A stretch of 64,000 bases of DNA. Origin: Nitrososphaerota archaeon. GTDB taxonomy: Archaea > Thermoproteota > Nitrososphaeria > Nitrososphaerales > Gagatemarchaeaceae. The DNA is taken from contig JAPCJI010000002.1 in the NCBI GenBank assembly GCA_027887005.1, forward strand, positions 124,001 to 188,000, given 5' to 3'. A model generated the notes under the pieces. That model worked only from the letters and a program-made list of their open reading frames with translations. It was not told the DNA's origin and searched no databases. The position numbers were made by a program, and so were the translations under genes. This document shows, in pieces, positions 12,488 to 47,334 of the stretch. Positions within the stretch are counted from its first letter, which is position 1; each line of letters opens with the position of its first letter.

Positions 12488-12513
<26 letters not shown>
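11722..12513 (+). CDS. DedA/SNARE-associated family membrane protein
   Basis: A 263-residue member of the DedA (VTT) family, probably a lipid scramblase or flippase-like membrane protein. The family core is visible: [19 protein letters not shown] (about 75-95), a long hydrophobic segment, [13 protein letters not shown], and [20 protein letters not shown] (about 165-185), which holds the conserved Arg residues. There are about five to six hydrophobic segments, including an extra N-terminal helix. The start is TTG at 11722, about 28 bases after TATA-like CCTATAAG near 11690. It is convergent with hutU; the two genes overlap by 26 bases at their 3' ends. Confidence 0.88.
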
Positions 12514-14143
<1,630 letters not shown>

Positions 14144-14209
14144 GAAATTTCGGGGTCGTCTCTCGATTTAAGAGTTCAGTCGCGCGCGCAGTTTTTCCCG
14201 AGAAGCCTT
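14144..14209. promoter_or_regulatory. divergent hutU/hutI promoter region
   Basis: The short gap contains CGATTTAAGAG (about 14164-14174), readable as a TATA-like element on both strands. It lies about 40 bases before the hutI ATG and about 25 bases before the hutU ATG. This suggests shared control of the two genes. No clear operator palindrome seen. Confidence 0.5.
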
Positions 14210-15484: not shown

Positions 15485-16956
15485 GGGAGCTTTCCGGCTC
15501 CTATTGCGGACGCCAGGTTCTCGATTTCGTCCGCCTGGGACCTGTCACCCCGGAGCAGTGGGGAGAGGCCCCTGACGACCGCGCAGACCTCCTTGGAGTG
15601 TTCCGAGACCCCTGTGTCGTCAGAGCCCAGGAGGTTGGAGGCACAGATCAGCTCGATCGCCAGTACCATCGCCACGTTGGATGCCACGGCAAGGGCCTTC
15701 ATCCCGGCGTTGACCCCATGGCTCGCGTGGTCCTCGATGCCCCCCGAGACGCTGGCAGGGTAGGCAGATTGGGGATAGACCTGCTTGGCATTGTCGGCTG
15801 TCAGGGCGGTCGCAGTGTACTGAAGTATCATCAGCCCGGACTCCAGGCCGGGTTTCCCAGCCATGTACTTCGTCTCCGCAGGCGTCTTCGAAAGGAGGAG
15901 ATTGATCCTCCCAAGCGAAATGACCCCGAGGTACGCTAGAGAAATCGATAGGAGGTCCAGCGCCATGGCTACGGGCTGGGCGTGGAAGTTCCCTCCGTGC
16001 AGCACCGCTCCGTCTTCGAGCAGGACGGGATTGTCTGAGACCGAATTCATCTCGTCGACCACCAGCCTCTCGGCGAAGCCGAGGGCGTCCTTGAGGGAAC
16101 CGTGGACCTGGGGGGCGCACCTAATCGAATAGGGGTCCTGGGGGACAGGCCCGGCCCGAATCCTGAGGCTGTCCTTCAGGGACTGTCTGATGCGCTTCGC
16201 TACGTATTCCTGGCCCGGGTCCCTCTTCAGTCCTATCAGCCTCTCGTCGAAAGACTGAGAGCAGGCGCCCAGGACTTCGCTGGTCAGTGCCACGGAGCAG
16301 TTTGCTGCCTCGAGGAGGATGCCTCCCCTCTGGGTGACCACCGCGCCCAGGGCGGTGGTGAAGGCAGTCCCGTTGATCAGAGAAAGTCCTTCCTTCGCGT
16401 GTAGGATGATCGGCTTGAGCTTGGATGCGGCCAGCGCCTTCCTCGAGTCTGTCAGTCGGTGCCTGTGGTAGGCTCTTCCTTCACCGACCATCGTGAGGGC
16501 CATGTGGGCCGATGGGACGAGGTCCCCGCTGGCTCCGAGGGAACCGAACTCGGGGACCCGGGGGGTTACCCCTTTGTTCAGCATAGCAGCGATGAGCTCG
16601 GCGACTTCGGTCCTTACAGCGCTGTTTCCGTTGAGGAGGCTGTTGAGCCGGATGACCATCGCTGCCCGGACCACCTCCAGTGGCATTGGGTTCCCGACTC
16701 CGGCAGCGTGGCTTCTGATCAGGTTGAGCTGGAGTTCTTTGAGGTTCCCGAGGCGGACGGCCTTGTCGGAGAGGGACCCGAATCCCGTGTTCACCCCGTA
16801 GACGACCTCCCCCCTGCCCAGCTTATGGTCGAGCAGAGACCTGAACCTCTCCATGCGTCGGAGGCTGGAGACGCTGACCCTGACTGGGACGCCCCGTTCC
16901 GCGACGTCGATGGCCGATTCGAGAGTGAGAGACCGCCCATCCACTGTAACGACCAT
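15481..16956 (-). CDS. hutH: histidine ammonia-lyase
   Basis: First step of histidine degradation: deaminates histidine to trans-urocanate. The MIO prosthetic-group triad Ala-Ser-Gly is in FGSLGASGDLVPSAHMAL (about residues 140-157). YGVNTGFGSL (about 59-68), QDPYSIRCAPQVHG and a late KEVCAVV segment also match. Length 491 is normal for the bacterial/archaeal enzyme. It is divergent from hutG with promoters for both in the gap. Confidence 0.96.
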   Translation of the reverse strand: MVVTVDGRSLTLESAIDVAERGVPVRVSVSSLRRMERFRSLLDHKLGRGEVVYGVNTGFGSLSDKAVRLGNLKELQLNLIRSHAAGVGNPMPLEVVRAAMVIRLNSLLNGNSAVRTEVAELIAAMLNKGVTPRVPEFGSLGASGDLVPSAHMALTMVGEGRAYHRHRLTDSRKALAASKLKPIILHAKEGLSLINGTAFTTALGAVVTQRGGILLEAANCSVALTSEVLGACSQSFDERLIGLKRDPGQEYVAKRIRQSLKDSLRIRAGPVPQDPYSIRCAPQVHGSLKDALGFAERLVVDEMNSVSDNPVLLEDGAVLHGGNFHAQPVAMALDLLSISLAYLGVISLGRINLLLSKTPAETKYMAGKPGLESGLMILQYTATALTADNAKQVYPQSAYPASVSGGIEDHASHGVNAGMKALAVASNVAMVLAIELICASNLLGSDDTGVSEHSKEVCAVVRGLSPLLRGDRSQADEIENLASAIGAGKLP

Positions 16957-17031
16957 TGCTATGCACCCCCCCAGGCCTGACTAATAATCCTCGACATACG
17001 TTTAACTCGACTTCGACGTGGGACCAGAACG
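16957..17031. promoter_or_regulatory. divergent hutH/hutG promoter region
   Basis: Two TATA-like elements: GATTATTAG on the minus strand (about 16980-16989) some 27 bases before hutH, and CGTTTAAC on the plus strand (about 16999-17006) some 27-30 bases before the TTG of hutG. Both would give leaderless mRNAs, and this supports the TTG start of hutG. Confidence 0.55.
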
Positions 17032-17973
17032 TTGAGGACGCAAGCGGAATACCCGGCCCCGAGGTACAGGGACCCGAAGGACAGGAGGCTGGTCCAGATC
17101 ATCAAGCAGGCCCGAAGCAGCAGAGCGGGGGCGGTCAATCTCATGGGGGTCCCATTCGACGGGGCGGTCTTGGGCAGGAAGGGAGCCGCGGGCGGGCCTG
17201 CCGGGATAAGGCAGGCACTGTCGTCGTTCTCGAACTACAGCCTGGAACTTGGCTCGGACCTTTCTGGAGCGAAGGTCTTCGACCTCGGGGATGTCGTCAC
17301 TTCGCAGGACGTCTTCGCCGCTCACACACAAATCGAGAAGGAGGTCGCAGAGGCGCTCGGAGGGGACTCCCTGCTGCTGGTGTTGGGTGGGGACAACAGC
17401 ATCTCCCTGCCTTCCCTCAGGGCATTCGGCAAGAAGTTCGGGAAGGTCGGCCTCATAGTCGTCGATTCGCACTTCGACCTGAGGGGCGAGATCGGGGGGA
17501 AGCCGACGAGCGGTTCGAGCTATGGCCTCGCTGTCAGGACCGCGAAGGGGCTCGACCCGAGACGTTTCGCGGAGATTGGGATCCACGGGTTCTTGAATTC
17601 AAGGGAGTACGCGAGGGAGGCGGCGAAAAACGGGATGACGGTGTACACCGCGAGCGATGTTAGGCAGGAAGGTGCGACCGCGATTGCAAGAGATGCATAT
17701 GGTGTGGCGAGCAAGGGATGCGAGGCGGTCTACCTGAGCATCGACCTTGATGCAGTGGACCTGGCATACGTGTCAGGGGTGAGCGCGCCGAGCGCAGGTG
17801 GAATCTCAGCTGCCGACCTCTTCGACATCGCCTACTACCTCGGGGGGAGGGACAAGGTCAGGTGCGCCGACCTGGTGGAGCTGGCTCCTCAATTGGACCC
17901 GAGCGGAAGGTCCCAGATCACTGCGGCGACAGCCCTTGTCTATCTGATGGCGGGATTCAGTTCGAGAGCATAG
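17032..17973 (+). CDS. hutG: formimidoylglutamase (ureohydrolase family)
   Basis: A 313-residue ureohydrolase. Given the neighbours it should split N-formimino-glutamate to glutamate and formamide, closing the hut pathway. The binuclear metal site is visible: GGDNSISLPS (about 118-127; Asn replaces the usual His of GGDH, a variation that fits formimidoylglutamase better than arginase), VVDSHFDLRG (about 143-152) and YLSIDLDAVDLAYVSG (about 234-249). Agmatinase-type activity is the alternative, made less likely by the context. TTG start, supported by TATA spacing. Confidence 0.88.
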   Translation: MRTQAEYPAPRYRDPKDRRLVQIIKQARSSRAGAVNLMGVPFDGAVLGRKGAAGGPAGIRQALSSFSNYSLELGSDLSGAKVFDLGDVVTSQDVFAAHTQIEKEVAEALGGDSLLLVLGGDNSISLPSLRAFGKKFGKVGLIVVDSHFDLRGEIGGKPTSGSSYGLAVRTAKGLDPRRFAEIGIHGFLNSREYAREAAKNGMTVYTASDVRQEGATAIARDAYGVASKGCEAVYLSIDLDAVDLAYVSGVSAPSAGGISAADLFDIAYYLGGRDKVRCADLVELAPQLDPSGRSQITAATALVYLMAGFSSRA

Positions 17974-18053
17974 GCGACTGGGGGGCGCGGGCAGATCGAT
18001 GCCAGAAACTCGACCTCAAGCTTAATCTGACTCAGATCGCGGGAACAGAATCG

Positions 18054-19019
18054 ATGTCGGAAGCTCGCAGGTGCAGGCTCGGCGTCTCTTTCGGTCGGGA
18101 GTCAGAGCTCTATTCCTTTCCGGAGGGGAACCCGATGAACAGTTCGAGGACGACTTTGTTTGCCGACGCAATTGGCAGGCTTGCACAGAGCAGTGGTTCA
18201 GGGAAGCTCGACCTGGTCGAACCAATCCAGGCCAGCGAGAAGGACCTGACGACCTTCCACGCGCAGGAATACGTGGACTTCGTAAAGGCCTCCTCCAGGA
18301 TGGGAGAAGGATACCTAGACTACGGCGACACCCCATCGTTCAAAGGGGTCTACGAGGCCTCGCTGTATCCAGTCGGGAACACTCTGAATGGACTGGACCT
18401 GATAATCAAAGGGAAGTTCGACCATTTCTTCAATCCGGTGGGAGGGCTGCACCACGCGCGAAAGGAAAGGGCGGGGGGGTTCTGCGTCTTCAATGACGTC
18501 GCGATAGCGATATCGAGGCTCTTGGAAATGGGAATGAAGCGGGTCGCCTACGTCGACATCGACGCCCACCACGGAGACGGTGTCTTCTACTCCTTCGAGT
18601 CCGACCCAAGGGTCGTAATAGGGGACGTTCACGAGGACGGCCGATTCCTCTATCCTGGGACAGGGAGCGCGGCGGAGACAGGAAGAGGAGACGGTGAAGG
18701 GACGAAGCTGAACATCCCGATGGCTCCGGGGTCTGGCGACGCTGAATTCATCGAATCCTTCGACAGGATAGCGAACTTCGTCAGAGGGTTTGAGCCGGAG
18801 TTCGTGCTCTTTCAGTGCGGGGCCGACTCGCTCCTGGGAGACCCTATCGCCCAGTTGAAGTACACACCCGTCTCTCACGCCTATGCGGCCAAGAAACTGC
18901 ACGACATCGCCCACGAATTCTGCCAGGGAAGGATCCTGGCGATGGGAGGGGGCGGCTACAACCCACTCAACGTGTCGGGCGCCTGGACCGCGGTTGCTAA
19001 GGAACTCGCGGCCGTCTGA
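18054..19019 (+). CDS. HDAC-family amidohydrolase (AcuC/acetylpolyamine type)
   Basis: A zinc-dependent deacetylase of the arginase-deacetylase fold, 321 residues from ATG 18054. The frame is open further upstream, but that part overlaps hutG, and a CTTAATC box lies about 30 bases before this ATG. Active-site blocks: NPVGGLHHARKERAGGFCVF (two His), YVDIDAHHGDGV (Asp and His metal or proton-relay residues), QCGADSLLGDPI (Asp) and MGGGGYN. The substrate could be an acetyl-lysine protein or an acetylated polyamine. The position after hutG suggests co-acquisition rather than a direct role in histidine use. Confidence 0.9.
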   Translation: MSEARRCRLGVSFGRESELYSFPEGNPMNSSRTTLFADAIGRLAQSSGSGKLDLVEPIQASEKDLTTFHAQEYVDFVKASSRMGEGYLDYGDTPSFKGVYEASLYPVGNTLNGLDLIIKGKFDHFFNPVGGLHHARKERAGGFCVFNDVAIAISRLLEMGMKRVAYVDIDAHHGDGVFYSFESDPRVVIGDVHEDGRFLYPGTGSAAETGRGDGEGTKLNIPMAPGSGDAEFIESFDRIANFVRGFEPEFVLFQCGADSLLGDPIAQLKYTPVSHAYAAKKLHDIAHEFCQGRILAMGGGGYNPLNVSGAWTAVAKELAAV

Positions 19020-20172: not shown

Positions 20173-21522
20173 GTGCTTGAGTCACCAGCAAGACGCTGGC
20201 AACTGAGCAGGCTCCCGTCTTCGATTCTTCTCGACGTCCTGCGCGACCCCCTTTCGTCCATGGTTCGAATCCAGCGGGAATTCGGAGACATGGCGGAGTT
20301 CAGGTTTGGGAGATACGTTGTCCTGGTCGTCTCGCACCCTGACCTCATCCGCGACGTCTTGGTGACGAAACACGCCAGCTTCGTCAAGAGCAGGTCGATG
20401 CAGTTCGGAAGGAAGCTCATGGGAAATGGCCTCCCTGCCTCCGAGGGCCTATTCCACAGGAATCAGAGGAAGGTCATCCAGCCTTCTTTCAATCACGAAC
20501 GGATAGCGGAATACATGCGCGATGCTTCCTCCTACGCCGAGGAGGCCATATGCCAATGGCGGGAAGGCGCGCCCCTGGAGTTCAGGGGCGAAATGATGAG
20601 GCTCACGCTCGCGATAGCCGCGAAGGCACTGTTTGGCGCCGACCTTCGCGCCGAGAGCGGGAAGACACGCTCAATGCTCGTCGAATCGATGGAGCACTTC
20701 ACTCTCCAGTATTACCTCCGCGTCTTCTACTTTGACCAGGACAGGAGCCCCTTCGCGGATTTCTTCGAGGCGCTGCCGTTCGGAGAGAACAGGCGATACA
20801 AGGCCGCGAGGCGCTTCCTGGACGACGCGATTGAGCGCTTGATATCCGAACGGAGAAGAGATGGGACTGAACACGGGGACCTCCTTTCGGTTTTGCTTCG
20901 GTCGCAGGACTTCATGGGAAGCGGGGCCTCGCTTCCCGACCAGCAGATTCACGACGAGTTGATGACCTTCCTCCTCGCCGCCCACGACACCACGGCCACC
21001 GCCATCACCTGGGCCGTCTACCTTCTCCTTGGTAACTCAGGTTCGTGGAGACGCGTGCAGCGGGAGGTCGACGACGCGACGCAGTCCGCTCCCGAGTATG
21101 TCGAGAGCGTGGTGGCAGAGTCGCTTAGGATGTATCCTCCGGCATGGATCATTGGGAGGCAAGTCGTTGACGAATGCGAAGTAGGAGGCCACAGAATAGA
21201 GAGAGGCACTACCGTGCTGATGAGCCAGTACGCAGTTCATCACGACCCCCGGTTCTTCCCCGACCCCTGGTCGTTCAATCCCGAAAGGTGGACCCGTGAG
21301 ATGACTGCGGCCCTCCCGAAGTATGCCTATTTCCCGTTCGGAGGAGGGACCCGCGCGTGCATAGGCGAGGGCTTCGCGAAGGCCGCGGCTTCGCTTATCC
21401 TTGCCACCGTCGCATCAAAGTGGGACTTAGAACTGGCCGAGAAGCCGGCAGTCGTACCGCACGCGAGAGTGACCCTCCACCCGAAACATGGAATGGTGGT
21501 GGTGCCCCGGAAGAGAAAGTGA
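20173..21522 (+). CDS. cytochrome P450
   Basis: A soluble heme-thiolate monooxygenase of 449 residues. I helix: AAHDTTATAITW with the AxxT oxygen-activating motif (about 275-286). K helix: ESLRMYPPAW (ExxR, about 317-326). The FNPERW segment and the heme-binding loop FPFGGGTRACIGEGFA (Cys near 397) follow. There is no membrane anchor. The start is GTG with a TTATTAG element about 27 bases upstream. P450s are uncommon in archaea, so recent or ancient transfer is possible. Divergence from UbiA hints at a shared prenylated or terpenoid substrate, which is speculation. Confidence 0.95.
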   Translation: MLESPARRWQLSRLPSSILLDVLRDPLSSMVRIQREFGDMAEFRFGRYVVLVVSHPDLIRDVLVTKHASFVKSRSMQFGRKLMGNGLPASEGLFHRNQRKVIQPSFNHERIAEYMRDASSYAEEAICQWREGAPLEFRGEMMRLTLAIAAKALFGADLRAESGKTRSMLVESMEHFTLQYYLRVFYFDQDRSPFADFFEALPFGENRRYKAARRFLDDAIERLISERRRDGTEHGDLLSVLLRSQDFMGSGASLPDQQIHDELMTFLLAAHDTTATAITWAVYLLLGNSGSWRRVQREVDDATQSAPEYVESVVAESLRMYPPAWIIGRQVVDECEVGGHRIERGTTVLMSQYAVHHDPRFFPDPWSFNPERWTREMTAALPKYAYFPFGGGTRACIGEGFAKAAASLILATVASKWDLELAEKPAVVPHARVTLHPKHGMVVVPRKRK

Positions 21523-36118: not shown

Positions 36119-36544
36119 TCAGCTGCCGACTAGCACTTTCAGCCTGTCAAAACTCTTTACTGAAAGAGTGCCGTCGCAGGCGGAGCACCCCTCCACCTGG
36201 AAGCCGGGCTCGAGGTCCCCGTGCAGTCCGCACATCATGTGGTTGAACCTGATGTAGTCCAGGACGTCCGTCATGGACCGAAGCGCCTCCCTCTGGTCGG
36301 GTGCCTTCGCGGAGAGGACCTGGGCTATCCTGTCCGCCGCCTTCGCTACCGTCGGGTCAGTCTCGAGGTTGACCATCATCCCCCTTGTCTTCCGGGCGTA
36401 GTTGCTGACCGAGGCTTGGGTCACACCCATGGCGTTCGCCACCTGCTGCTGGGTCATGTGGTGGTCCTTCTGCAGTCGTCTGGCGACCATCGCCCTGAGA
36501 GCGGGCAGGGCCGACTTCGAGACGATTTCGTAAGGGCTAATCAT
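36119..36544 (-). CDS. XRE-like transcriptional regulator (COG2522 type) heading the lipoylation operon
   Basis: 141 residues. N-terminal SPYEIVSKSALPALRAMVAR, then the helix-turn-helix MTQQQVANAMGVTQASVSNY (about 30-49). This is the layout of the archaeal COG2522 predicted regulators. The C-terminal part has Cys/His residues (MMCGLHGDLEPG, GCSACDGTL) that could bind metal or an FeS cluster. As the first gene of the operon it is a candidate sensor for lipoate, FeS or energy status. A TTAAATAATTGAAT region directly upstream is the likely promoter. Confidence 0.85.
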   Translation of the reverse strand: MISPYEIVSKSALPALRAMVARRLQKDHHMTQQQVANAMGVTQASVSNYARKTRGMMVNLETDPTVAKAADRIAQVLSAKAPDQREALRSMTDVLDYIRFNHMMCGLHGDLEPGFQVEGCSACDGTLSVKSFDRLKVLVGS

Positions 36545-36731: not shown

Positions 36732-39599
36732 TTGAGCGAGCAGAACGTCTTCGAGTTGTTCTCACCGCCTCTGGTCGCGGCCCTGAAGGAGAGGGGGTTC
36801 GATACTCCCACCGACCCCCAGATGAAGCTGGTGCCCCTCGTCAGGGCCGGGAAGAACGCCCTGTTGATGGCCCCGACTGGGACCGGGAAGACCGAGGCGG
36901 CGCTGCTTCCGATCCTGGACTCGATGCTCAGGGAGGGGGACGACAGGGACAAGGGGACGAAGCTGCTCTACATCACCCCTCTGCGGGCGCTGAACAGGGA
37001 CATGCTTGAGCGGATGCAGTGGTGGTGCAAGCGCTTCGACATAAGGCTGGGAGTGAGGCACGGGGACAGCACTCAGGCGGAGAGGACGAACCTCAGCTTC
37101 GCGCCCCCGGAGATCCTGATCACAACCCCGGAGACCCTGCAGATACTTCTGGTGGGAAGGAGGATCCGCCAGAACCTTGCGAAGCTCAGGTGGGTAGTGG
37201 TGGACGAGGTCCACGAACTCGCCGAGGACAAGCGAGGGAGTCAGCTGAGCGTCGGCCTCGAAAGGCTGCGGGACGTGGCTGAGAACGAGTTCCAGATGGT
37301 CGGGCTTTCCGCCACGGTGGGCTCCCCCGAGAGGGTCGCGCGGTTCCTCGTCGGGGAGGGGAGGGAGTGCGAGGTGGTGAGGGTGCCTGTGGAGAAGAGC
37401 CTGGCTCTGAAGGTCGTTTCGCCCAGGGCGACCGGGGAGGACAAGATACTGGCGGAGTCCATCTATTCCTTCCCCGAGGTGATGGCGAGGCTTAGGACCA
37501 TAAGAGAGATCGTCGAGAAGTACAGGTCTGTCCTGATATTCACCAACACCCGGACTGAGGCGGAGGCTCTCGCCAGCAGGTTCAGGGTCTGGGACCCTGA
37601 ATTCAAGATCGGCATTCATCACAGCTCCCTGTCCAAGGCGACGAGGGAGGCGGTGGAGCGGGGTCTGAAGGACGGCAAACTCCTCGGAGTCATCTGCACG
37701 AGCAGCCTGGAGCTGGGCATTGACATCGGGTTCCTGGAGTACGTGGTCCAGTACAACTCCCCCAGGCAGGTCACGAGGCTAATCCAGAGGGTGGGAAGGA
37801 GCGGTCACAAGGTCGGGGAGGTCTCCAACGGGGTCGTGATCACACAGGATTCGGACGACACTCTGGAGGCGGCGGTCCTCTGCAGGAAGTCGGTGGGAGG
37901 GGAGCTGGAGCCCCTTGAGCCTGTCATGGAGCCCTACGACGTTGCCGTCCATCAGGTGGCCGGGCTGCTCATAGAGCAGGGGAACTGGAACTTCTCCGAC
38001 ATCGAGGCCCTGCTCAGGCGGAGCTATGTTTACTCAAGGATGGAGGGGCAGAAGCTGAAGAAGGTCCTGACATACATGAGGGAGAGATACCCGCGGCTCG
38101 CCTACTACAGCGAGTCTGACGGCAAGGTCTTTCGGGCGAGGGACGTCCAGCCACTCTTCAAGTACTATTTCGACAACCTTTCGATGATACCCGACGAGAG
38201 GCAGTACCTCGTCATCGAGGGGGACAACTTCGTCGGCACCCTGGACGAGGCTTTCGTCTCGGAGTACGGCGAGGTGGGGGTGAAGTTCGTCGAGGCCGGA
38301 CGGTGCTGGAAGATAGAGCAGATCTACGGGAACAAGGTGTACGTGAAGTCCGAGGAAGACCCGACCGGGGCGGTCCCCAATTGGGTGGGGGACGAGATTC
38401 CTGTCCCCAGGGAGGTGGCGGCCGAGGTCGGGATGATACGGAGGAGGTACGCCGAGGAGATCGAGAAGGGGAAGGGAGGCGAGTATGTGGACGAGCTCTG
38501 CATGACCTACCCGGTCGCGAAAGAGGCGATGGTCGAGGCCCTGAAGGAGGTGGCCGAGCAGCAGGGAGCGGGGCTTCCAATCCCGTCGGAGAGGCTGGTG
38601 ACGGTCGAGAGGTGGGACAGGTATGTGGTGATTCAGGCTGCCTTCGGGCACAAGGTGAACAGGCTTCTGGCGAGGGTGCTCGGATACATGATTTCGGAGA
38701 GGATGGGCCAGTCGGTGGCCGTCCACCAGGACCCCTACAGGATGGTGATCGAGGCTGACGTTGCCCCGTCGATGGTCCTCTCGGTCCTGGACGAGCTGTA
38801 CGGGCTCGACCTGAAGGCGACCACTGAAAAGGCGGTCGAGAGGAGCGGGATCTTCAAGCGGAGGCTCATACATGCCGGGAAGAAGTGCGGGGCCATTGCC
38901 AAGGACGCTGAGTACGCCAGCGTTTCCATAGCCGGGCTGATCGAGTCCCTGAGAGACACGCCTGTCTACGAGGAGGCCATGAGCATGATCTTCCACGACG
39001 ACCTGGACGTGGCGAGCTCGGCGGACGTGCTGGAGAAGATCCATGCCGGAGCGGTGGAGGTGAAGGTGATCGAGTCTGAGGGGCTTTCGCCCATCGCCAG
39101 GATCGGGGTGGAGGAGATCAGCAGGCGGGGAGAGATAGTCTCCCCCGAAAGGCTGAGGGCTCTGCTCAAGCAGTCCACGAGGGCGAGGGTCAACGACACC
39201 TTCCTGGTGGCCGTCTGCACCCGCTGCTGGAACTTCCTGGAGCTGAGGAGGGTGGAGGACCTCGACGGGCTGGTGAAGTGCCCAGTCTGCGAGAAGGACC
39301 AGATAGGGCTCTCGACTGACTCATACGAAAACGTGTTCTCCCTGGCGATGAAGGCGAGGAGCAGGGCCGACATGCGTGGGAAGAAGCTCCGGGTGGTCGA
39401 GAGTCTGAAGAAGTCGGCCGAACTGAGGCGGGAGTACGGCCACGCGGCAGACATGCTGATCGCGGGGAGGGGCATCAGGCTCACGGACGCGGCTGCGCTG
39501 GCGTCCAAGATGAGGAAGGAAGGAAAGGACCTTGTGGAGCTGATCATCGACGGCGAGAGAGAGGCGCTCAGGCGGCGCTACTTCTTCGGGGCTTCCTGA
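36732..39599 (+). CDS. Lhr-type superfamily 2 helicase, copy 1
   Basis: 955 residues. Helicase motifs: Walker A MAPTGTGKTEAA (about 46-57), ITPLRALNRDM, DEVHELAEDKRG (motif II), GLSATVGSPE (III), IFTNTRTEAEALASRF, TSSLELGIDIG and QRVGRSGHK (VI). The long C-terminal region matches the Lhr core (winged helix and beta-barrel). It then has a zinc ribbon (CTRCWNFLEL...VKCPVCEKDQ, about 825-855). Lhr enzymes are 3'-5' DNA or RNA-DNA translocases in repair. TTG start after a GGTGAGGG stretch. Its 3' end overlaps the KITE-like gene by 22 bases, convergently. Confidence 0.92.
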   Translation: MSEQNVFELFSPPLVAALKERGFDTPTDPQMKLVPLVRAGKNALLMAPTGTGKTEAALLPILDSMLREGDDRDKGTKLLYITPLRALNRDMLERMQWWCKRFDIRLGVRHGDSTQAERTNLSFAPPEILITTPETLQILLVGRRIRQNLAKLRWVVVDEVHELAEDKRGSQLSVGLERLRDVAENEFQMVGLSATVGSPERVARFLVGEGRECEVVRVPVEKSLALKVVSPRATGEDKILAESIYSFPEVMARLRTIREIVEKYRSVLIFTNTRTEAEALASRFRVWDPEFKIGIHHSSLSKATREAVERGLKDGKLLGVICTSSLELGIDIGFLEYVVQYNSPRQVTRLIQRVGRSGHKVGEVSNGVVITQDSDDTLEAAVLCRKSVGGELEPLEPVMEPYDVAVHQVAGLLIEQGNWNFSDIEALLRRSYVYSRMEGQKLKKVLTYMRERYPRLAYYSESDGKVFRARDVQPLFKYYFDNLSMIPDERQYLVIEGDNFVGTLDEAFVSEYGEVGVKFVEAGRCWKIEQIYGNKVYVKSEEDPTGAVPNWVGDEIPVPREVAAEVGMIRRRYAEEIEKGKGGEYVDELCMTYPVAKEAMVEALKEVAEQQGAGLPIPSERLVTVERWDRYVVIQAAFGHKVNRLLARVLGYMISERMGQSVAVHQDPYRMVIEADVAPSMVLSVLDELYGLDLKATTEKAVERSGIFKRRLIHAGKKCGAIAKDAEYASVSIAGLIESLRDTPVYEEAMSMIFHDDLDVASSADVLEKIHAGAVEVKVIESEGLSPIARIGVEEISRRGEIVSPERLRALLKQSTRARVNDTFLVAVCTRCWNFLELRRVEDLDGLVKCPVCEKDQIGLSTDSYENVFSLAMKARSRADMRGKKLRVVESLKKSAELRREYGHAADMLIAGRGIRLTDAAALASKMRKEGKDLVELIIDGEREALRRRYFFGAS

Positions 39600-40132
39600 G
39601 CCCTGGCGAGTATCATGGTCATCAGCGTCTTCTCGTCGACCTCAGCTCTGGTCCGCCAGCCGACGTGGAGCATGGCCCTGTCGTCCTGCTCCAGGTACCC
39701 CCTCTTGACATACCTGTCCAGGGAGTACTCGACCCTCCACTTCGGGAACTTCTCTCGGAGGAAGTGCTCCACCTCTCTCCTGGCTGCCCTCCCCTGCTTG
39801 GAATTCACGAAGGCTATGGTGCTTGCGAGGACTGCGAGGTCGTCGATCCTGATCCCTGACGTCTCGGCTTCGCTGACGGTAGGAGGCTCCCGGAACCGCA
39901 GGAGGAAGCGGGAGGAGTCCTCGGTCCCGTCCACGCCCTTGACTTCGAAGACCTCGAGGCCGAGCGCCGCGACGTCCTCGCCGAGGACCTCGACTATCTT
40001 CCGGTAGTCCCTTCCAAGATAGCGCTTCATCTCCCATCCCTTGACCCCGGGGTTCCTTCCCCTTTGGAGGATGAGAACCTGGAAGGCCTTCCTCACCTTC
40101 CTCTCCAGGAGTGCCCTGTCTGTTGATTCCAT
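39578..40132 (-). CDS. KITE/MAGE (Nse3)-like winged-helix protein
   Basis: 184 residues. About residues 1-105 read like a MAGE/Nse3 winged-helix half (LGEDVAALGLEVFEVKG followed by a strand SSRFLLRF). Residues 105-165 form a second predicted winged helix (DLAVLASTIAFVNSKQG, EVEHFLREKFPKW, DRYVKRGYLEQ). Tandem winged helices next to an SMC and a kleisin define KITE subunits (ScpB, MukE, JetB, Nse1/Nse3). Identification is by pattern, not by search. It starts in a TGATG overlap with the kleisin-like stop, so the two are translationally coupled. Confidence 0.65.
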   Translation of the reverse strand: MESTDRALLERKVRKAFQVLILQRGRNPGVKGWEMKRYLGRDYRKIVEVLGEDVAALGLEVFEVKGVDGTEDSSRFLLRFREPPTVSEAETSGIRIDDLAVLASTIAFVNSKQGRAARREVEHFLREKFPKWRVEYSLDRYVKRGYLEQDDRAMLHVGWRTRAEVDEKTLMTMILARAQEAPKK

Positions 40133-40890
40133 CAGGGCTCACCAACTATCGAAATGGCGACCGACTTCGTCGGCCCCTTCGCCTTCTCCGTGAGGGCGGT
40201 CGTCCAGATCCTGCCGGTCAGCGGCTCGGTCTTGAGGGAAGCCCTCCCCTCGCTGATCAGGAACGCGAGGAGGTAGCCCTTGAGCACCTGGGCCTCGAAG
40301 GTCTCTGACTGGATGAACTCCCTGTAGTCGACCCACTCGCCGTTTGACTTTTCGAGGAGTTCGTCGTGGAGGTCCTTGAGGTTCTGCTCGAACTGGTCCT
40401 TGGTGAAGACCCCCAGCGAGATGAGCTCCTCGTAGCCCACCGAGCCCGGCCTGGTCCCGTAGCTCCCGAACTCGTCCTTGAAGCGCTCGGCCATGGGGGA
40501 GAGGTCCCGCCAGTAGATGAAGGCCCTCTCGAGCCCCTTCGGGGAGAGCTGGTCGACCTGCGCGACCGGATGCCAGCTCCTGATGAAGGCCTCCGAGAGG
40601 GCTTCCTTGGCTAGGAGCTTGACCTTCAGCTGGATGAGCAGGGGGTCGATGTAGAGGGAGGAGGCCCTGTGCTTGAGCCATTCGTCCTGGAGCTTCACTA
40701 TCTGGGCGAGCTCGAGCAGGGCTTCGGAGTCGACGAGCAGCTCGTCGAGGAACTTCCACTCGGGGAGGCGCTCCTTGAGCACCCGGATCTTTTCTTTGAT
40801 GTCGACGTCGAAGGGGTCGGCGGAGCTGGACTCGACGGAGCGGCAGAGCTCTATCACCCGCATGAGGTCCTCGAGCTTGTCCCTGTCCAC
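40132..40890 (-). CDS. kleisin-like SMC partner (ScpA/Nse4-like)
   Basis: 252 residues, acidic and helical. The N-terminus SSADPFDVDIKEKIRVLKE resembles the DPFD(V/I)DI helix with which ScpA kleisins grip the SMC neck. A middle helical segment follows (DSEALLELAQIVKLQDEW, IDPLLIQLKVKLLAKEAL). The C-terminus looks like a winged helix (QVLKGYLLAFLISEGRASLKTEPLTG) suited to binding an SMC head. It lies one base after the SMC stop. No catalytic motif seen. A remote-homology search or structure prediction would settle it. Confidence 0.6.
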   Translation of the reverse strand: MDRDKLEDLMRVIELCRSVESSSADPFDVDIKEKIRVLKERLPEWKFLDELLVDSEALLELAQIVKLQDEWLKHRASSLYIDPLLIQLKVKLLAKEALSEAFIRSWHPVAQVDQLSPKGLERAFIYWRDLSPMAERFKDEFGSYGTRPGSVGYEELISLGVFTKDQFEQNLKDLHDELLEKSNGEWVDYREFIQSETFEAQVLKGYLLAFLISEGRASLKTEPLTGRIWTTALTEKAKGPTKSVAISIVGEP

Positions 40891-40891
40891 G

Positions 40892-42898
40892 CTACTTGAG
40901 CTCCTTGACTTCGGACGCGCCGTGGACCGCCTGGACGGCGATCACGTGGGCGCTCCTGTCGAAGACAGTGAGGATCGACGGGGTGATGACCAGGTACTGG
41001 GAGGCTTCCCTCTGCTTCATCTGGGACAGGATCATCTTGAACATCGCTTCGCGGTTCCTCGGGTCCATGTGTATGTCGAACTCGTCCATGGCCCTGAGGG
41101 GTGAGACTATCCTGGCCTGGAGGGAGAGGATGAAGGCCATGAGGGCCACCGATCGTTCGCCCCCGCTCTGGGTGAAGGGGTCGAGGGTCGTGGGGGAGCC
41201 GCCCCGGAACCCGACGTAGAGCTGGATGCCTGCGTCCTCGATGTCCGCGCCCTCCTCGAACTTGATGAAACCGCTGGCGTCCGCGGCGGCGAGGACGGCC
41301 TGGTAGGGGGGGTCGACCGACTCGACTAGGCTGTCCATGGCCCGCCTCCAGACGTCCTTCCGGGTTTCGAGCTCGCCCAGCATCGCCTTCTTGTTTTCCT
41401 GCAGCTGGGCGAGCTTGACCTTGAGCTCGTCGATGTTGCCGGAGTAGTCGTTGTAGATCTTCTCTGCGTCGTCGGGGACGTCCTGCATCTTCTGGATGTG
41501 GGCGGAGACAAGCTTGAGCTCCTCTGAGACCTCGTAGGGCTGGCGGAGGGTCTCGACCCTGGCGCCTGCCTTCTCCAGGTCGGGGGCCAGCTTCTCGAGC
41601 TCGCCCTTGTATTCGCGGGCGCTGCGTTCGAGGTCGCGGAGGTCGGACTCGGTGACCTTGATCCTGTAGGACAGGACTTCGGACTTCACCCGGAAGGAGA
41701 TGTAGCTCTCCATGGTCCGCTTGACAAGCTCCTCGGTCCGGCTGATCTCCGGCTGCAGGATGGAGACCTCCCTTTCGAGGTCAACCTTCCTCCGCTTCGC
41801 GTCCTCTTCGGCCGACGCGCCCTTGCCGGAAATGTAGTCTACGACCTCCTTGATACGCTTCGTGCTCTTCTCGGGGCCCTTCGCAAGGAGCTCGTCGACA
41901 GTGACTGAGAGGCCGGCCAGGTCCTCCTTGATGCTCCTGTAGGCGTTCTCAGCAGACTCGTCCTTGGCCTTGTCGGATTCGGCCCTGACAAGCGCGAAGT
42001 ACAGCTTCCTCAGGTCCACCTGCTTGTCCAGGAGGGTCTGGTGGGTCTGGTCGGCGTCCGCCGCCACCTCCGCCTGCTGGGACTTCAGGTCTTCGAGGGC
42101 CCTCGTCTTTGCCATGATCTTCTCCTGGGCCGATTGAAGGGATTTGCTCAGCTTCGCCTCGGTGCTCCAAAGGAGCTCGCGGGCCAGCAGTTCGCGGTGC
42201 TCGATGAGCCTCCGCTTTTCCTGGTACCTGTCGTAGACCTGCTTCCAATACTCGAGGGCCTGGTTTGCGTTGTCGATGAGCTGGAGAAGGGAGCTCTCCT
42301 CTCCGATGAGCCCGCCCAGCTCCTGTTCTGCCAGGAGGATCCTCTGCCTGAACTCCGCGAAGCCGACTGCCTCTTCGACCATCCTCAGACGCTCCTGAGG
42401 GGTCACCGCGCCCAGCTCCTCGATCATTCCCTGGTGCATTATGATGAGAAGGTTGTCCGGGTTGATCCCGAACTCGCTGAGGAGTCTGACGACTTCGCTC
42501 TTGTCTATCTCCTTGTAGTCTGCCTCGAACCAGTAGGAGCCGTCCCGCTTCAGATACCTGCTGAGCATGAACGTGTCTGATTTGGAGTAGGGGATGGGGC
42601 GTCTGCCCTTCTTGACCGAGTTGTCGAAGATCAGGGAAACCCTCGCAATGTCCTTCCCCCGGCGGATCAGGTCCGAGAGCTTCCTCGAGCGCTCGGTGTA
42701 CGCCTGGCCGAAGGCCACGGAGATCGCGAGCAGGACCGAGGACTTGCCCGCGCCGTTGGGCCCGACGATGAGGTTGAGGCCCTCCCGGAGGGGGATTCTT
42801 GCGTATTCGTAGCTCATGAAGTTCTCCAGGATGATCTCTTTGATCGTAGTCTGGGGGAGGGTCGCCTCTTTGGAGACTTCCTCGGTTCGCCTTGACAA
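40892..42898 (-). CDS. short SMC/Smc6-like ABC ATPase
   Basis: 668 residues. N-terminal head: IILENFMSYEYARI, Walker A GPNGAGKSS (about 46-54), and a Q-loop region ending LLIIMHQGMIEELG. Two coiled-coil arms (about 175-330 and 360-530). C-terminal head: ABC signature QSGGERSVALMAF (about 577) and Walker B LRAMDEFDIHMD (about 601-612). NFMS at the start, and DEFDxxMD followed by NR, are hallmarks of Smc5/Smc6-like proteins. The arms are short, and I see neither a standard hinge domain nor a CxxC zinc hook. TTG start with a TCTAAATC box about 30 bases upstream. First gene of the SMC-kleisin-KITE operon. Confidence 0.9.
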   Translation of the reverse strand: MSRRTEEVSKEATLPQTTIKEIILENFMSYEYARIPLREGLNLIVGPNGAGKSSVLLAISVAFGQAYTERSRKLSDLIRRGKDIARVSLIFDNSVKKGRRPIPYSKSDTFMLSRYLKRDGSYWFEADYKEIDKSEVVRLLSEFGINPDNLLIIMHQGMIEELGAVTPQERLRMVEEAVGFAEFRQRILLAEQELGGLIGEESSLLQLIDNANQALEYWKQVYDRYQEKRRLIEHRELLARELLWSTEAKLSKSLQSAQEKIMAKTRALEDLKSQQAEVAADADQTHQTLLDKQVDLRKLYFALVRAESDKAKDESAENAYRSIKEDLAGLSVTVDELLAKGPEKSTKRIKEVVDYISGKGASAEEDAKRRKVDLEREVSILQPEISRTEELVKRTMESYISFRVKSEVLSYRIKVTESDLRDLERSAREYKGELEKLAPDLEKAGARVETLRQPYEVSEELKLVSAHIQKMQDVPDDAEKIYNDYSGNIDELKVKLAQLQENKKAMLGELETRKDVWRRAMDSLVESVDPPYQAVLAAADASGFIKFEEGADIEDAGIQLYVGFRGGSPTTLDPFTQSGGERSVALMAFILSLQARIVSPLRAMDEFDIHMDPRNREAMFKMILSQMKQREASQYLVITPSILTVFDRSAHVIAVQAVHGASEVKELK

Positions 42899-43010
42899 GA
42901 TTCTTACCCGCGCAGGCCTGTCCAGGATTTAGACCTTGCGCGGATTTGGATTACTTTCGGAGTTCCCTCCCCCGAAATCCCTTAAATGAACGGTGGAGGT
43001 TTCATGTCTG

Positions 43011-45854
43011 TTGGTCCCTGAAAGTTCATTCGAAGGACTTGCTCCTCAGGTCAGGGGGCTCCTGGAGGAGGCGGGGATCAGTGAGCCGACGGCTCCCCAG
43101 GTCAAGGCATGGCCACTCGTTTCACGCGGCGAGGACGTTCTGATCATAGCGCCGACGGGCTCGGGGAAGACCGAAGCCGCCATCCTGCCTCTGCTCAGCA
43201 GGCTCGTGGAGAGGGGACATGGGGAAGGGATTTCGCTGCTGTACATCACCCCCATGCGTGCCCTGAACAGGGACATGCTCAAGCGACTCCAGATCTGGTG
43301 CGGCAGGCTTGGGCTCACGGTCGACATCAGGCACGGCGACACCCCGCAGGCTCAGAGGACGAAGCAGTCGTCCCACCCCCCAGACGTCCTGGTGACCACC
43401 CCGGAGACCCTGCAGGCGATACTCCCAGGGAGCAGGATGAGACAGAACCTTTCGCACCTGAAGGCCGTGGTGGTCGACGAGCTGCACAACCTGGTGGAGA
43501 GCAAGAGGGGGGTTCAGCTGTCGGTGGGGTTACAGAGGCTGAGGAAGGTGGCTCCGAGGTACCAGCTGGTCGCGCTGTCGGCGACCGTCGGGACTCCGGA
43601 CGTCGCGGCAGAGTTCATCTTCGGCGGGGGCAAGCGGACGATAGTCAGGGCGGAGACACCGAAGGAGTTCTCGTACGCGATCGAATATCCGGTCCCCGAC
43701 CCGGCGGACCAGTCGGCTGCGAAGAAGACCTACGCAGCACCCGACTTGGCGGCAAGGCTGTCGAGGATCAACAGCCTGATCGAGGAGCACAACTCGACCC
43801 TGATCTTCGTGAACAGCAGGACCGTGGCGGAGATGCTGGGGGAGAAGCTTGCTAGGCTGAGGAAGGACGTGGGAGTTCACCACGGTTCGCTGCCGAGGGA
43901 AGAGAGGGAGAGGGTCGAAGGGGCGTTCAAGTCGGGACAGTTGAAGGCGCTGGTCTGCACGAGCACCCTGGAGCTCGGGATCGACATCGGTTCGGTCGAC
44001 CTGGTCGTCCAGTACATGTCCCCGAGGCAGGTCACTTCCCTGGTTCAGCGGGTGGGGAGGAGCGGGCACAGGCTCGGGAGGGTCTCCAAGGGAGTCCTGG
44101 TCACGGTGTCCGCGGACGACATCATGGAGTCGGCGTCGAGCATCATCTCTGCGGCGAAGGGGAGGATCGAGCCGACCAGGCCCTACGCGAATTCTCTGGA
44201 CGTGCTCGCCCACCAGGTCGCGGGGTACTTGATGGACTTCGAGTCCATGGACGGGGACCTTCTGCTGAAGGAAATCAGGAAGGCAGCTCCGTTCCGGGGG
44301 CTGAGCGACGAGAGCTTCAGGAGGACGGTCGGGTATCTTTCGGAGCTGGGGAAGCTAAGGTTCGACGGCAAGACTCTTTCCAGGACGAGGATGACCAGGG
44401 ACTACTACTTCGAGAACCTTTCGATGATCCCCGACGAGACCAGGTATCTGGTGGTGGACCTGTCGACCAACGAGACGGTGGGCATCCTCGGGGAAGAGTT
44501 CGTTCTGCTCAAGGCGAAGGTGGGAGTCCATTTCATCTGCAAGGGTAAGATCTGGCAGATCGAGCAGGTCGCGGAAGACAGGAAGATCTACGTCACTCCG
44601 GTGGAGGACCCGCTGGCGGCCCTGGCCACCTGGGACGGAGAGATGCTCCCCATTCCTTTCGACCTCGCCATGGAGACGGGCAGGCTCAGACGCTCGATTT
44701 CGGAGGCGCTGGACGTCGGGGAGAAGGCTGTGGAGGAGGCTGTCGGGGAGATACCCGGGGAGGCTGCCGCGAGGGCTCTGGTGGTGGACGAGATCGCGGA
44801 GCACAAGAAGATGGGAGCGCCCGTGCCGTCCGACAGGCTGATTCTCTTCGAGGGGTTCGGAAAATATCTGATCGCACATCTGTGCTTCGGAGAGTCGGTC
44901 AACAGGACCTTCGCCTACGTCTTCGAGGAGATACTTTCCAGGAGAGGGTTGGTCAGAGTCTGGTGGCTGGATGGCTACAGGTTGCTGCTGGAGCTCACCG
45001 CCGACACCGAGGACCTCGACCTCAGGGCCCTGTCCAAGGAGCTGATGGGAATCAGCCCCGAGGAGCTCGAGAGGACCTACGCCGTGGCGGCCCAGCGCAA
45101 CTTCCCATTCCCGGCCCGGGTCAAGTACGTGGCCGAGAGGTTCGGCGCCCTGAAGAGAGGGAAGCTTATCGCCCATCCCAACCTTTGCTCCCTTCCGACC
45201 CGGTTCGAGAGGACGCCTGTTTTCGAGGAGGCTCTTCAGGAGACGGCCAGGGACCTCATAGACATGGAGCATGGGAAGGAGATCCTGACGCTCGTCGCCG
45301 ACGGAGGGATATCCGTGGAGACGTTTCTGGCAGGGGACAGGCCGACCCCCATAGCCTACAGCCTCCTCTACAGGTACCTTGAGGTGCCGGAGGCGGTCGC
45401 CCCCGATTCGCTCGGCAGGTCATCCTACCAGAGGATGAAGGCGAGCATATTCGGGACCGACGTGAGCCTGCTCTGCATGAAATGCGGGACCGACCAGGGT
45501 CAGACCAGCGTCGGGGAGCTGCCGGAGGACCCGAAGTGCACCTCGTGCGGATCGGGCCTTCTGGTCCCCTGCTACTGGGGGACGGGGAAGGTCGCCGACA
45601 TTCTCGAGAGGAGGGCGGGGAAGGCTTCGCTCAACGAAGAGGAGAAGGCCGAGCTTTCGAAGGCGAGGAGAGCTGCGGACCTTGTGCTCTCCTATGGGAA
45701 GAAGGCCGTGGTCGCCCAGACTGTCTACGGGATAGGGCCCCAGACCGCCTCGAGGATACTCGCCGAGATGCAGGACGACGAAGAGGCGTTTTACCGTGAC
45801 CTGCTCGAGGCGAAGATACGATTCGTTACGACGAGACCGTTCTGGTCTAACTGA
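43011..45854 (+). CDS. Lhr-type superfamily 2 helicase, copy 2
   Basis: About 947 residues. Walker A APTGSGKTEAAI, ITPMRALNRDM, motif II VDELHNLVESKRG, LSATVGTP, LIFVNSRTVAEML, TSTLELGIDIG and QRVGRSGHR. A C-terminal Lhr core and a zinc ribbon (CMKCGTDQGQT...KCTSCGSGL), then a helix-hairpin-helix-like tail (VYGIGPQTASRILAEM). It is related to copy 1 but clearly diverged. The frame is open to GTG 42993, but a TTAAAT box at 42982-42987 makes that start impossible for its transcript; TTG 43011 fits. Divergent from the SMC operon (start 42898), so both could be co-regulated. Confidence 0.92.
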   Translation: MVPESSFEGLAPQVRGLLEEAGISEPTAPQVKAWPLVSRGEDVLIIAPTGSGKTEAAILPLLSRLVERGHGEGISLLYITPMRALNRDMLKRLQIWCGRLGLTVDIRHGDTPQAQRTKQSSHPPDVLVTTPETLQAILPGSRMRQNLSHLKAVVVDELHNLVESKRGVQLSVGLQRLRKVAPRYQLVALSATVGTPDVAAEFIFGGGKRTIVRAETPKEFSYAIEYPVPDPADQSAAKKTYAAPDLAARLSRINSLIEEHNSTLIFVNSRTVAEMLGEKLARLRKDVGVHHGSLPREERERVEGAFKSGQLKALVCTSTLELGIDIGSVDLVVQYMSPRQVTSLVQRVGRSGHRLGRVSKGVLVTVSADDIMESASSIISAAKGRIEPTRPYANSLDVLAHQVAGYLMDFESMDGDLLLKEIRKAAPFRGLSDESFRRTVGYLSELGKLRFDGKTLSRTRMTRDYYFENLSMIPDETRYLVVDLSTNETVGILGEEFVLLKAKVGVHFICKGKIWQIEQVAEDRKIYVTPVEDPLAALATWDGEMLPIPFDLAMETGRLRRSISEALDVGEKAVEEAVGEIPGEAAARALVVDEIAEHKKMGAPVPSDRLILFEGFGKYLIAHLCFGESVNRTFAYVFEEILSRRGLVRVWWLDGYRLLLELTADTEDLDLRALSKELMGISPEELERTYAVAAQRNFPFPARVKYVAERFGALKRGKLIAHPNLCSLPTRFERTPVFEEALQETARDLIDMEHGKEILTLVADGGISVETFLAGDRPTPIAYSLLYRYLEVPEAVAPDSLGRSSYQRMKASIFGTDVSLLCMKCGTDQGQTSVGELPEDPKCTSCGSGLLVPCYWGTGKVADILERRAGKASLNEEEKAELSKARRAADLVLSYGKKAVVAQTVYGIGPQTASRILAEMQDDEEAFYRDLLEAKIRFVTTRPFWSN

Positions 45855-45890
45855 AAGTCCATTAACGGGGGAGCTCGGGGCAGGTTCGGT

Positions 45891-46574
45891 TTGGTTCTAG
45901 CGGGAAAGGTCTTCGTGGTGAGGGAGAACTTCGACATGGACGTGCTGGCGGAGAAGCTGAAGGCTTTCAGGGTGGAGACCGAGAGCACTGTCGAGGACCA
46001 AGAGTTCAAGCTGGTTTCTGAGATCAGGGACCTTTCGGCCGGGAAGGGGACCCTGGACGGGACGTTCTCCTTCGACTCGGTGTTCGTCGTGAGGCACAGG
46101 GGGAAGCCCGTTCCAGTGCCGAGGACCTACGAGGCGCCGTTCTCGTTCTATCTCTTCAAGGACAGGCTCTTCCTGACTGTCTACGACAAGAAGAACAGGG
46201 CGAACAACATCGCCAACGAGATAAGCAAGGCGGTGTTCATGAGCCTCGGCCAGGTGGTGGAGGCTAGGATCGACCCGGAGACGCTGAGGAAGTTCCATGA
46301 GAAGAATTTTGACGAGACGAAAATTGTGTTCTTCGACGAAGTGGACATACCGAACATCAACAAGCTGTCACTCTACGGGGATGCTTTGGGGAACACGTCG
46401 CTCTACTCCGACTACCTAACTCATGGGAAGCTCTGGTACATCGTGCTGAAGAGCTCCAAGACCGGGTATGTGCTTGGCGTGACGAGGAACTGCGTCGTGA
46501 CCGGGTTCAGCAAGATGGAGATTTCAGAGTTCGCCTCCTTCATCAAGGGAGAGATACTCCCGCTGATAGCGTGA
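45891..46574 (+). CDS. unknown protein between Lhr helicase 2 and the phosphoesterase
   Basis: 227 residues, soluble, mixed alpha/beta, rich in charged and aromatic residues. I do not recognise a family. Notable segments: FVVRENFDMDVLAEKLKAF at the start, FYLFKDRLFLTVYDKKNRAN in the middle, KIVFFDEVDIPNINKLSLYG, and LWYIVLKSSKTGYVLGVTRN near the end. TTG start with CATTAACG some 30 bases upstream. It lies 36 bases after the helicase and one base before the phosphoesterase, so a shared transcript and function with the Lhr/SMC region is inferred. Confidence 0.75.
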   Translation: MVLAGKVFVVRENFDMDVLAEKLKAFRVETESTVEDQEFKLVSEIRDLSAGKGTLDGTFSFDSVFVVRHRGKPVPVPRTYEAPFSFYLFKDRLFLTVYDKKNRANNIANEISKAVFMSLGQVVEARIDPETLRKFHEKNFDETKIVFFDEVDIPNINKLSLYGDALGNTSLYSDYLTHGKLWYIVLKSSKTGYVLGVTRNCVVTGFSKMEISEFASFIKGEILPLIA

Positions 46575-46575
46575 C

Positions 46576-47334
46576 TTGCTCAGGATAGTTCCCGGGGATG
46601 CGGCCCTTGTCTTTTCCAACAGCGGCGAGAGCACTCTCCTGATCTCCGACCTTCACCTTGGCCTGGAGAAGGAACTGGCGAAGAAAGGCTTCAGCCTGCC
46701 TTCTTATTCGGTGAAGATGGTTGGGAGGATAAGGGACCTCGCCGAGAAGTATGGGGCGAAGAGGCTGGCGGTCCTTGGGGACGTCAAGCACACGGTGGGG
46801 AAGGTGGAGGACATCGACTGGGGGATGGTCCCGTTCTTCTTCGACACCATGCTCGACTTATTCGAATCGGTGGAGGTGGTGCCTGGGAACCACGATGGTA
46901 GCCTCAAGATCGTGCTGCCGCCCCGGGTCAAGCTACAGCCTTCCCGGGGGACGGTGCTCGGCTCGGGAAGGGGGCGAGTCGGAGTCGCCCACGGGCATGC
47001 TTGGCCGTCGGAGGAGGCGATCGCATGCAAGAACCTAGTTATCGGCCATTCCCATTTCACCTACGAGATGAGGGACAGGTTCGGGGCCAGGACGCGGGAG
47101 TCCGTCTGGGTCTCCGCGAGCTACGACGTGGCCCAGCTCATGGAAGGGGCGGGGTACAAGTCCAAGGCGAAAGGGAAAGGCAAGCTGATCGTGATGCCAC
47201 CGTTCAACAGGATGGTCGGGGGGCAGCCCATCAACAGGAGCAGGTCTTTCCAGTTCGGACCGGTGCTCTCATCAAGGTCGGTGAGCCTAGAGGAATCGGA
47301 CATCTTCCTTCTGGACGGGACGAGAGTTACCTAG
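46576..47334 (+). CDS. ICC-like metallophosphoesterase (COG1407 type)
   Basis: 252 residues. The five calcineurin-like motifs are present: DLHLGLEKEL (DxH, about 23-32), LGDVKH (GD), VPGNHDG (GNHD), VAHGHAWPS and IGHSHF. This family (predicted ICC-like phosphoesterases) is often next to Lhr helicases and is thought to be a nuclease or phosphodiesterase. The gene follows its neighbour after one base (TTG start), extending the helicase 2 transcript. Confidence 0.9.
   Translation: MLRIVPGDAALVFSNSGESTLLISDLHLGLEKELAKKGFSLPSYSVKMVGRIRDLAEKYGAKRLAVLGDVKHTVGKVEDIDWGMVPFFFDTMLDLFESVEVVPGNHDGSLKIVLPPRVKLQPSRGTVLGSGRGRVGVAHGHAWPSEEAIACKNLVIGHSHFTYEMRDRFGARTRESVWVSASYDVAQLMEGAGYKSKAKGKGKLIVMPPFNRMVGGQPINRSRSFQFGPVLSSRSVSLEESDIFLLDGTRVT

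Follow-up and report, generated by a model that had tools for sequence, protein, structure and literature searches.

A probable Smc5/6-like complex encoded beside a distinct Lhr helicase in archaea

Three adjacent archaeal genes, coding for a short structural maintenance of chromosomes (SMC) ATPase, a kleisin and a KITE subunit, likely specify an archaeal Smc5/6-like complex that has a dedicated Lhr helicase (Lhr1) and an RdgC-like protein as partners and that serves fork and recombination maintenance. The trio occupies positions 39578-42898 of the window, by which we mean the whole 64,000-nucleotide stretch analyzed (Nitrososphaerota archaeon GCA_027887005.1, contig JAPCJI010000002.1, positions 124,001-188,000), and belongs to a seven-gene locus at 36732-47334 in a 1.6 Mb archaeal genome. 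Smc5/6, which clamps DNA and protects the chromosomes of eukaryotes, is less well understood than any other eukaryotic SMC complex, and its origin is an open question; the archaeal complex is probably a small and simpler relative of it. An earlier sequence-only reading of this locus, which proposed a helicase-SMC-nuclease system for repair or for restriction of foreign DNA, missed the better identity of a putative Smc5/6-type core with an RdgC-like ring protein.

Results

The SMC gene (40892-42898, minus strand) codes for a 668 aa protein that Pfam recognizes as an SMC ATPase, and its translation contains intact Walker A (GPNGAGKSS), signature (SGGERS) and Walker B (MDEFDIHMD) motifs. Orthologue alignments were compared as profiles with solved structures from the Protein Data Bank (PDB); narrow alignments gave weak matches, which improved when the alignments were widened. 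Specifically, the short SMC profile has human and yeast SMC6 as its best matches (2.7e-58 and near), followed by yeast SMC5 (1e-52), SMC2 (3e-46), human SMC5 (8e-46) and then all others, so that one SMC5 chain, the human one, ranks just under one SMC2. As a control, canonical SMCs of this genome and its relatives were made into a profile; its matches are Smc of archaea and bacteria together with SMC1-4, and no SMC5 or SMC6 appears at E <= 1e-20. By profile ranking, the short SMC appears to be of the SMC5/6 type. It is very likely included in a published archaeal 'SMC5/6-related' lineage that groups with SMC5 and SMC6 (Yoshinaga and Inagaki, 2021, cited in PMC9389158), a study which, as cited there, treats the SMC subunit alone; in the literature within reach, partners, the missing hinge and the neighborhood do not figure.

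The hinge is indeed missing, as the SMC_hinge domain (PF06470) is detected in 0 of 29 short SMCs vs 14 of 14 canonical SMC controls. The arms are also short, with 212-271 residues separating the conserved positions W244 and Y485. In being a short archaeal SMC-related ATPase the protein resembles ASRP (ClsN/Sph); however, it scores 40 bits against NCBIfam NF045487, where the cut-off is 300, and a CxxC zinc hook is present in none of the 29 central regions, which together indicate that it is not an ASRP.

When searched as single window sequences, the kleisin, the KITE subunit and a third protein of the locus, discussed below as RdgC-like, had no match in Pfam, NCBIfam or PADLOC, and their identities emerged only from orthologue sets. 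For the kleisin (40132-40890, minus strand; 252 aa) the PDB profile search returned yeast Nse4 (6e-5), human EID3 (1e-3) and, weakly, ScpA, and Pfam Nse4_C matches 37 of 58 orthologues (best 5.7e-6), suggesting a kleisin of the Nse4 type. The KITE subunit (39578-40132, minus strand; 184 aa) has a predicted tandem winged-helix structure. Among 57 KITE orthologues Pfam finds MAGE in 11 (best 2e-5) and SMC_Nse1 in 7 (best 4e-4). The top four Foldseek matches of its AlphaFold2 model (mean per-residue confidence, pLDDT, 93) are MAGE-G1/Nse3 and NSE1 (3.8e-6 to 6.6e-5), above MukE, JetB and ScpB, and VIA-align superposes the model on Nse3 chain 7dg2_C with a Z of 14.2 (root-mean-square deviation, rmsd, 3.7 over 170 residues) and on other Nse1/Nse3 chains with Z 10.7-11.5. 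Note that the designed repeat protein 7udk, which topped the KITE profile search, was rejected as a repeat artifact. Profile and predicted structure thus point to a subunit related to both Nse3/MAGE and Nse1, and the single KITE gene is too short to hold an additional RING. That SMC, kleisin and KITE independently match the same eukaryotic complex indicates that the trio is Smc5/6-like.

Relative to the eukaryotic core (Smc5, Smc6, Nse1, Nse3 and Nse4), the trio offers putative SMC5/6-type heads, an Nse4-like kleisin and an Nse1/Nse3-related KITE. However, there are several important differences. Smc5/6 has an SMC heterodimer and two KITEs (Nse1 with its RING, and Nse3) where the archaeal operon has one SMC and one KITE, the eukaryotic hinge and long arms are replaced by no hinge and much shorter arms, and the archaeal operon is linked to a helicase. 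Nse2 (the SUMO ligase) and Nse5/6 were not identified in the neighborhood, to which the search was confined. A 2020 study concluded that a kite subunit is generally missing from archaeal Smc complexes (PMC7055376); the trio, built on a second archaeal SMC, would depart from that rule. In the literature within reach, which excludes most subscription papers and preprints, we found no description of Nse4/Nse3-type partners in archaea no report that the hinge is missing, and none on the Lhr clade or the RdgC-like neighbor.

Orthologues bear out the SMC-kleisin-KITE set that had been proposed from the window by itself. Short SMC identity is 79-86% in most genomes of the genus and ~43-58% in 13 genomes from seven other families of the order; the closest named genomes (SMC identity 84-86%) are labelled Thaumarchaeota, Nitrososphaerota or just archaeon. 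Searching GTDB genomes with an alignment of the SMC recovered 80 loci, all archaeal, from Nitrososphaeria, Bathyarchaeia, Methanomethylicia, Hadarchaeia, Caldarchaeum relatives, Thermofilales and Methanophagales. In 68 of the 74 loci whose downstream sequence reaches 1.6 kb or more, SMC, kleisin and KITE follow one another in the same order and strand, and this one order recurs across Thermoproteota and Hadarchaeota. The layout of the locus is far above chance, being shared by about 30 related genomes and found in several phyla. Tree distances of the SMC, the kleisin, KITE and the RdgC-like protein correlate at 0.77-0.93, exceeding every permutation, which fits genes that were inherited together. 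One candidate for a wider range, the locus L151 of a 'Candidatus Hodarchaeaceae archaeon' (Asgard by its NCBI name), was rejected; the name is misleading, as this genome falls in one phylum with Hadarchaeum and Hadesarchaea genomes and groups with Hadarchaeota.

The kleisin profile gives one strong match in each of 84 of 200 high-completeness genomes of the phylum (an additional match, in genome G255, is weak), in 21 of 28 Hadarchaeota genomes (two of these being fragments) and in 15 of 148 genomes of the Methanophagales phylum, three Methanophagales genomes encoding the kleisin apart from the SMC. Kleisin matches in eight genomes (G138, G163, G205, G228, G238, G248, G091 and G098) contain one or two internal stops, mostly TGA; their open frames are near normal length, and the stops may reflect an end-alignment effect or frameshifts.

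The trio is flanked by two Lhr helicases, which the sequence-only reading took together as part of an SMC system. Lhr1 (36732-39599, plus strand; 955 aa) is convergent with the SMC operon and overlaps the KITE gene by 22 bases (39578-39599), while Lhr2 (42993-45854, plus strand; 953 aa) is divergent from it, with start codons 94 bases apart (under 115 had been proposed). Pfam finds DEAD, Helicase_C, WH_Lhr and DEAD_assoc in both proteins, and the helicase motifs are intact in both translations. Lhr1 satisfies the published definition of aLhr1 (PMC8301817), with an SF2 core, WH, Domain 4 (DEAD_assoc) and a C-terminal Cys4 zinc-finger-like motif (CTRC...CPVC). It thus has the domain order and zinc finger of aLhr1 helicases; however, it lies in a separate clade that is found with the short SMC. 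Among 35 genomes from other families of the order, a Lhr1-type gene (44-57% identity) is present in 13 of 13 genomes with the short SMC vs 0 of 22 without it, the Lhr matches in the latter being either more distantly related proteins or short pieces. A tree built by a quick method from 70 Lhr proteins unites 39 SMC-linked Lhr1 proteins of several phyla in a single group (SH-aLRT 99) that contains none of the 16 Lhr proteins sampled from SMC-minus genomes. The window's Lhr2 is placed together with Lhr proteins from genomes lacking the SMC and from Bathyarchaeia. Thus, Lhr1 is part of the association and appears to be a helicase type dedicated to the trio, whereas Lhr2 is of the general clade and a local neighbor, so that the earlier suggestion holds for the first helicase only. 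Note that a prior context survey found no general conserved neighbor for aLhr1 (PMC8301817), and that archaeal Lhr was placed in DNA repair in 2020 with its context unknown (PMC7437997).

Neighborhoods fetched across the order mostly have Lhr1 convergent with KITE-kleisin-SMC, with Lhr2, the RdgC-like gene and the phosphoesterase gene being more variable. Gene order at Lhr1 is maintained across families and phyla and not scattered, and its presence tracks that of the SMC, the two patterns on which the earlier proposal had been made to depend. Downstream sequence reaches at least 5.5 kb in 58 loci; 28 of these have an Lhr gene, which is convergent in 25. In almost every genome of the family whose neighborhood was fetched, Lhr1 has beside it a gene for a 141 aa helix-turn-helix protein (36119-36544 in the window; weak ParB-HTH/Xre match), which could be a regulator of the cluster. 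In genome G033, Lhr2 is interrupted after residue ~328 by ~1.36 kb through which the frame stays open (L048:9953-14180; a 1237-aa open reading frame), much as an intein would do; this Lhr2 also has a frame break near residue 173.

All seven reading frames of the locus are open, and gaps after Lhr2 are minimal, as had been noted, with 36 bases to the RdgC-like gene and then 1 base to a metallophosphoesterase gene (46576-47334, plus strand; 252 aa). The phosphoesterase has a weak Pfam metallophosphoesterase match, scores 82 bits against NCBIfam TIGR00024 (under the cut-off of 115) and retains the metal-site motifs SDLHLG, GD, GNHD and GHSH as read from its sequence. Phosphoesterases of this TIGR00024/COG1407 type are known beside archaeal and bacterial Lhr genes (PMC8301817), in agreement with the neighbor pair named in the sequence-only reading. 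This gene is outside the conserved core of the locus; Lhr2 and the phosphoesterase are generic repair types that are here only by local placement.

The protein between them (45891-46574, plus strand; 227 aa), left as unknown by the sequence-only reading, has an AlphaFold2 model with a pLDDT of 92. Foldseek matches this model to E. coli RdgC (2.1e-6) and Iml3/CENP-L (1.6e-4), and VIA-align gives a Z of 13.3 for RdgC (rmsd 4.6 A over 213 residues) and up to 9.8 for Iml3/CENP-L. The predicted fold, which matches across the whole chain, is the RdgC/CENP-L one, found in proteins that encircle double-stranded DNA; in contrast to those proteins, this one is archaeal, is linked to an SMC operon and has no detectable sequence similarity to them. 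The ring that RdgC forms encircles DNA (PMC11077077, which cites earlier structures), and Iml3-Chl4 puts the same scaffold on centromeric DNA (PMC11077077). TBP matches in both structural lists reflect half of the RdgC-like fold, and a Pfam 'Ariadne' match in 1-2 members (E 0.0065) was rejected as chance. Of the 62 loci in which 3.5 kb or more precede the SMC, 27 have an RdgC-like gene there, and it is divergent in 27 of the 27. Across the 200 genomes, the RdgC-like protein (81 genomes) and the kleisin (84 genomes) occur together in 74, an odds ratio of 115 that is uncorrected for shared ancestry. Six genomes of one genus (G140, G176, G218, G229, G239 and G244) have divergent RdgC-like proteins (79-118 bits) and no kleisin, so these proteins can exist apart from the trio.

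Such figures raise the question of whether the trio is simply an operon to which the genes for Lhr, the RdgC-like protein and the phosphoesterase have stayed adjacent by shared ancestry alone. Shared phylogeny does inflate all of the co-occurrence values, Lhr2 and the phosphoesterase adjoin the SMC only in the window's family, and Bathyarchaeia lack a linked Lhr1. We nevertheless regard adjacency without shared function as very unlikely, given that Lhr1 linkage holds from Nitrososphaeria to Hadarchaeota and Thermofilales while flanking genes change, that Lhr1 separates the 13 genomes with the short SMC from the 22 without it, and that the RdgC-like gene is divergent in every adjacent case.

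Each operon has one short SMC gene, and the only other above-cut-off SMC_N protein in the genome is a canonical SMC of 1186 aa, so the trio is a second SMC system. A PF02616 (ScpA) search of 81 relatives found no ScpA for the canonical SMC, a result from which absence is not concluded, as an unlinked scpA has been reported in Thaumarchaeota (PMC7055376). Were that kleisin truly missing, the trio could do the kleisin-dependent work, acting as a second condensin that organizes or segregates chromosomes and has no part in repair, with the Lhr and RdgC-like genes as unrelated neighbors; the fold that the RdgC-like protein has in common with the centromere proteins CENP-L/Iml3 would suit this role. 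However, weak kleisin-profile matches in other genomes resemble ScpA, so ScpA-like genes are possibly too divergent for PF02616, the canonical SMC co-exists with a short-armed SMC of apparent SMC5/6 type, and a dedicated Lhr1 clade points to DNA processing. A condensin role is therefore improbable in our judgment.

The genes around the operon bear on the proposal of a defense system, in which plasmids or viruses would be restricted as by Wadjet, or as viral DNA is by human Smc5/6, with the SMC complex extruding small circles, Lhr unwinding and the phosphoesterase cutting. Its composition of SMC, kleisin, KITE, helicase and nuclease does recall Wadjet, the SMC-kleisin-KITE architecture is common to Wadjet (JetABCD), MukBEF and MksBEFG, a JetABC chain is among the KITE Foldseek matches, and eukaryotic Smc5/6 restricts viruses according to PMC9458440. 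However, the archaeal KITE is nearer to Nse1/Nse3 than to MukE or JetB, and PADLOC, run on the seven cluster proteins, finds no JetA, no JetB and no JetD, the nuclease, and scores JetC at no more than 36 bits, against coiled coil. Matches of the Lhr proteins to PADLOC BrxHI, SngC and DpdJ were rejected as reflecting the common Lhr/SF2 core. Pfam detects no Toprim nuclease in the cluster, and the phosphoesterase is not part of what is conserved. Moreover, most good genomes of the genus have the short SMC in a single copy, and it is missing from whole families rather than patchily within species. Neighbors are housekeeping genes, being lipoate/dehydrogenase genes, thioredoxin and enolase in the window's family and, at 13 Bathyarchaeia loci, what, judged by its sequence, appears to be the operon for the RNA polymerase large subunits. 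With gene trees that are also congruent, there is no positive evidence for the defense part of the earlier proposal, which we consider unlikely.

At L104:13806-19954 and about 12 more Bathyarchaeia loci the SMC operon lies no more than ~10 kb from the apparent RNA polymerase operon. Elsewhere in the window are a histidine-degradation set (12488-19019; urocanase-, imidazolonepropionase-, histidine-ammonia-lyase- and formiminoglutamase-like by reading) with a histone-deacetylase-like protein, and a cytochrome P450-like protein (20173-21522); cytochrome P450 is uncommon in archaea.

Discussion

We favor fork and recombination maintenance as the role of the trio because archaeal Lhr targets forked DNA (PMC7437997), RdgC rings DNA and Smc5/6 resolves recombination intermediates according to PMC9458440; the housekeeping neighbors, single copy and congruent trees argue for the same role. 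In such a complex, two short hinge-less SMC ATPases would be bridged by the Nse4-type kleisin, which would carry the Nse1/Nse3-type tandem winged-helix subunit. The complex would clamp double-stranded DNA in an ATP-dependent manner at stalled forks or recombination intermediates, with Lhr1 remodeling the fork DNA next to it. The RdgC-like protein, as a DNA-encircling dimer, may limit or stabilize recombination intermediates.

Several observations weigh against this assignment. Without a hinge the usual SMC dimer interface is missing, which makes ring formation uncertain. The proteins matched by the kleisin and the KITE are remotely homologous to them, and taken by itself the kleisin of the window fails to reach Pfam. 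The majority of Bathyarchaeia loci have no Lhr within 5.5 kb and make up most of the loci that lack one, so Lhr1 is not obligatory, and 35 of the 62 loci have no RdgC-like gene inside 3.5 kb of the SMC. Finally, Pfam RdgC matches none of 38 family members and a PDB profile search gave no match to RdgC either, so that for this protein the assignment is one of fold only.

The similar relatedness of the KITE subunit to Nse1 and Nse3, and of the SMC to SMC5 and SMC6, would fit a form that predates both duplications. We tentatively raise the possibility, somewhat less probable than not, that the operon is a living representative of the Smc5/6 ancestor before Smc5/Smc6 and Nse1/Nse3 were duplicated, with a hinge not yet present or lost, and working with a CENP-L-fold, RdgC-like DNA-encircling protein and an Lhr of its own.

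An archaeal form whose operon codes for just one SMC, one KITE and one kleisin of Nse4-like type would provide a minimal system for reconstitution as well as a direct test of Smc5/6 evolution, and may show Smc5/6 as it was before its subunits doubled. Whether SMC clamping requires a hinge at all could likewise be tested with a hinge-less SMC that has a kleisin and a KITE. Archaeal Lhr is given a context by the association with a distinct Lhr clade, and the RdgC/CENP-L-fold neighbor may bear on the origin of centromere proteins.

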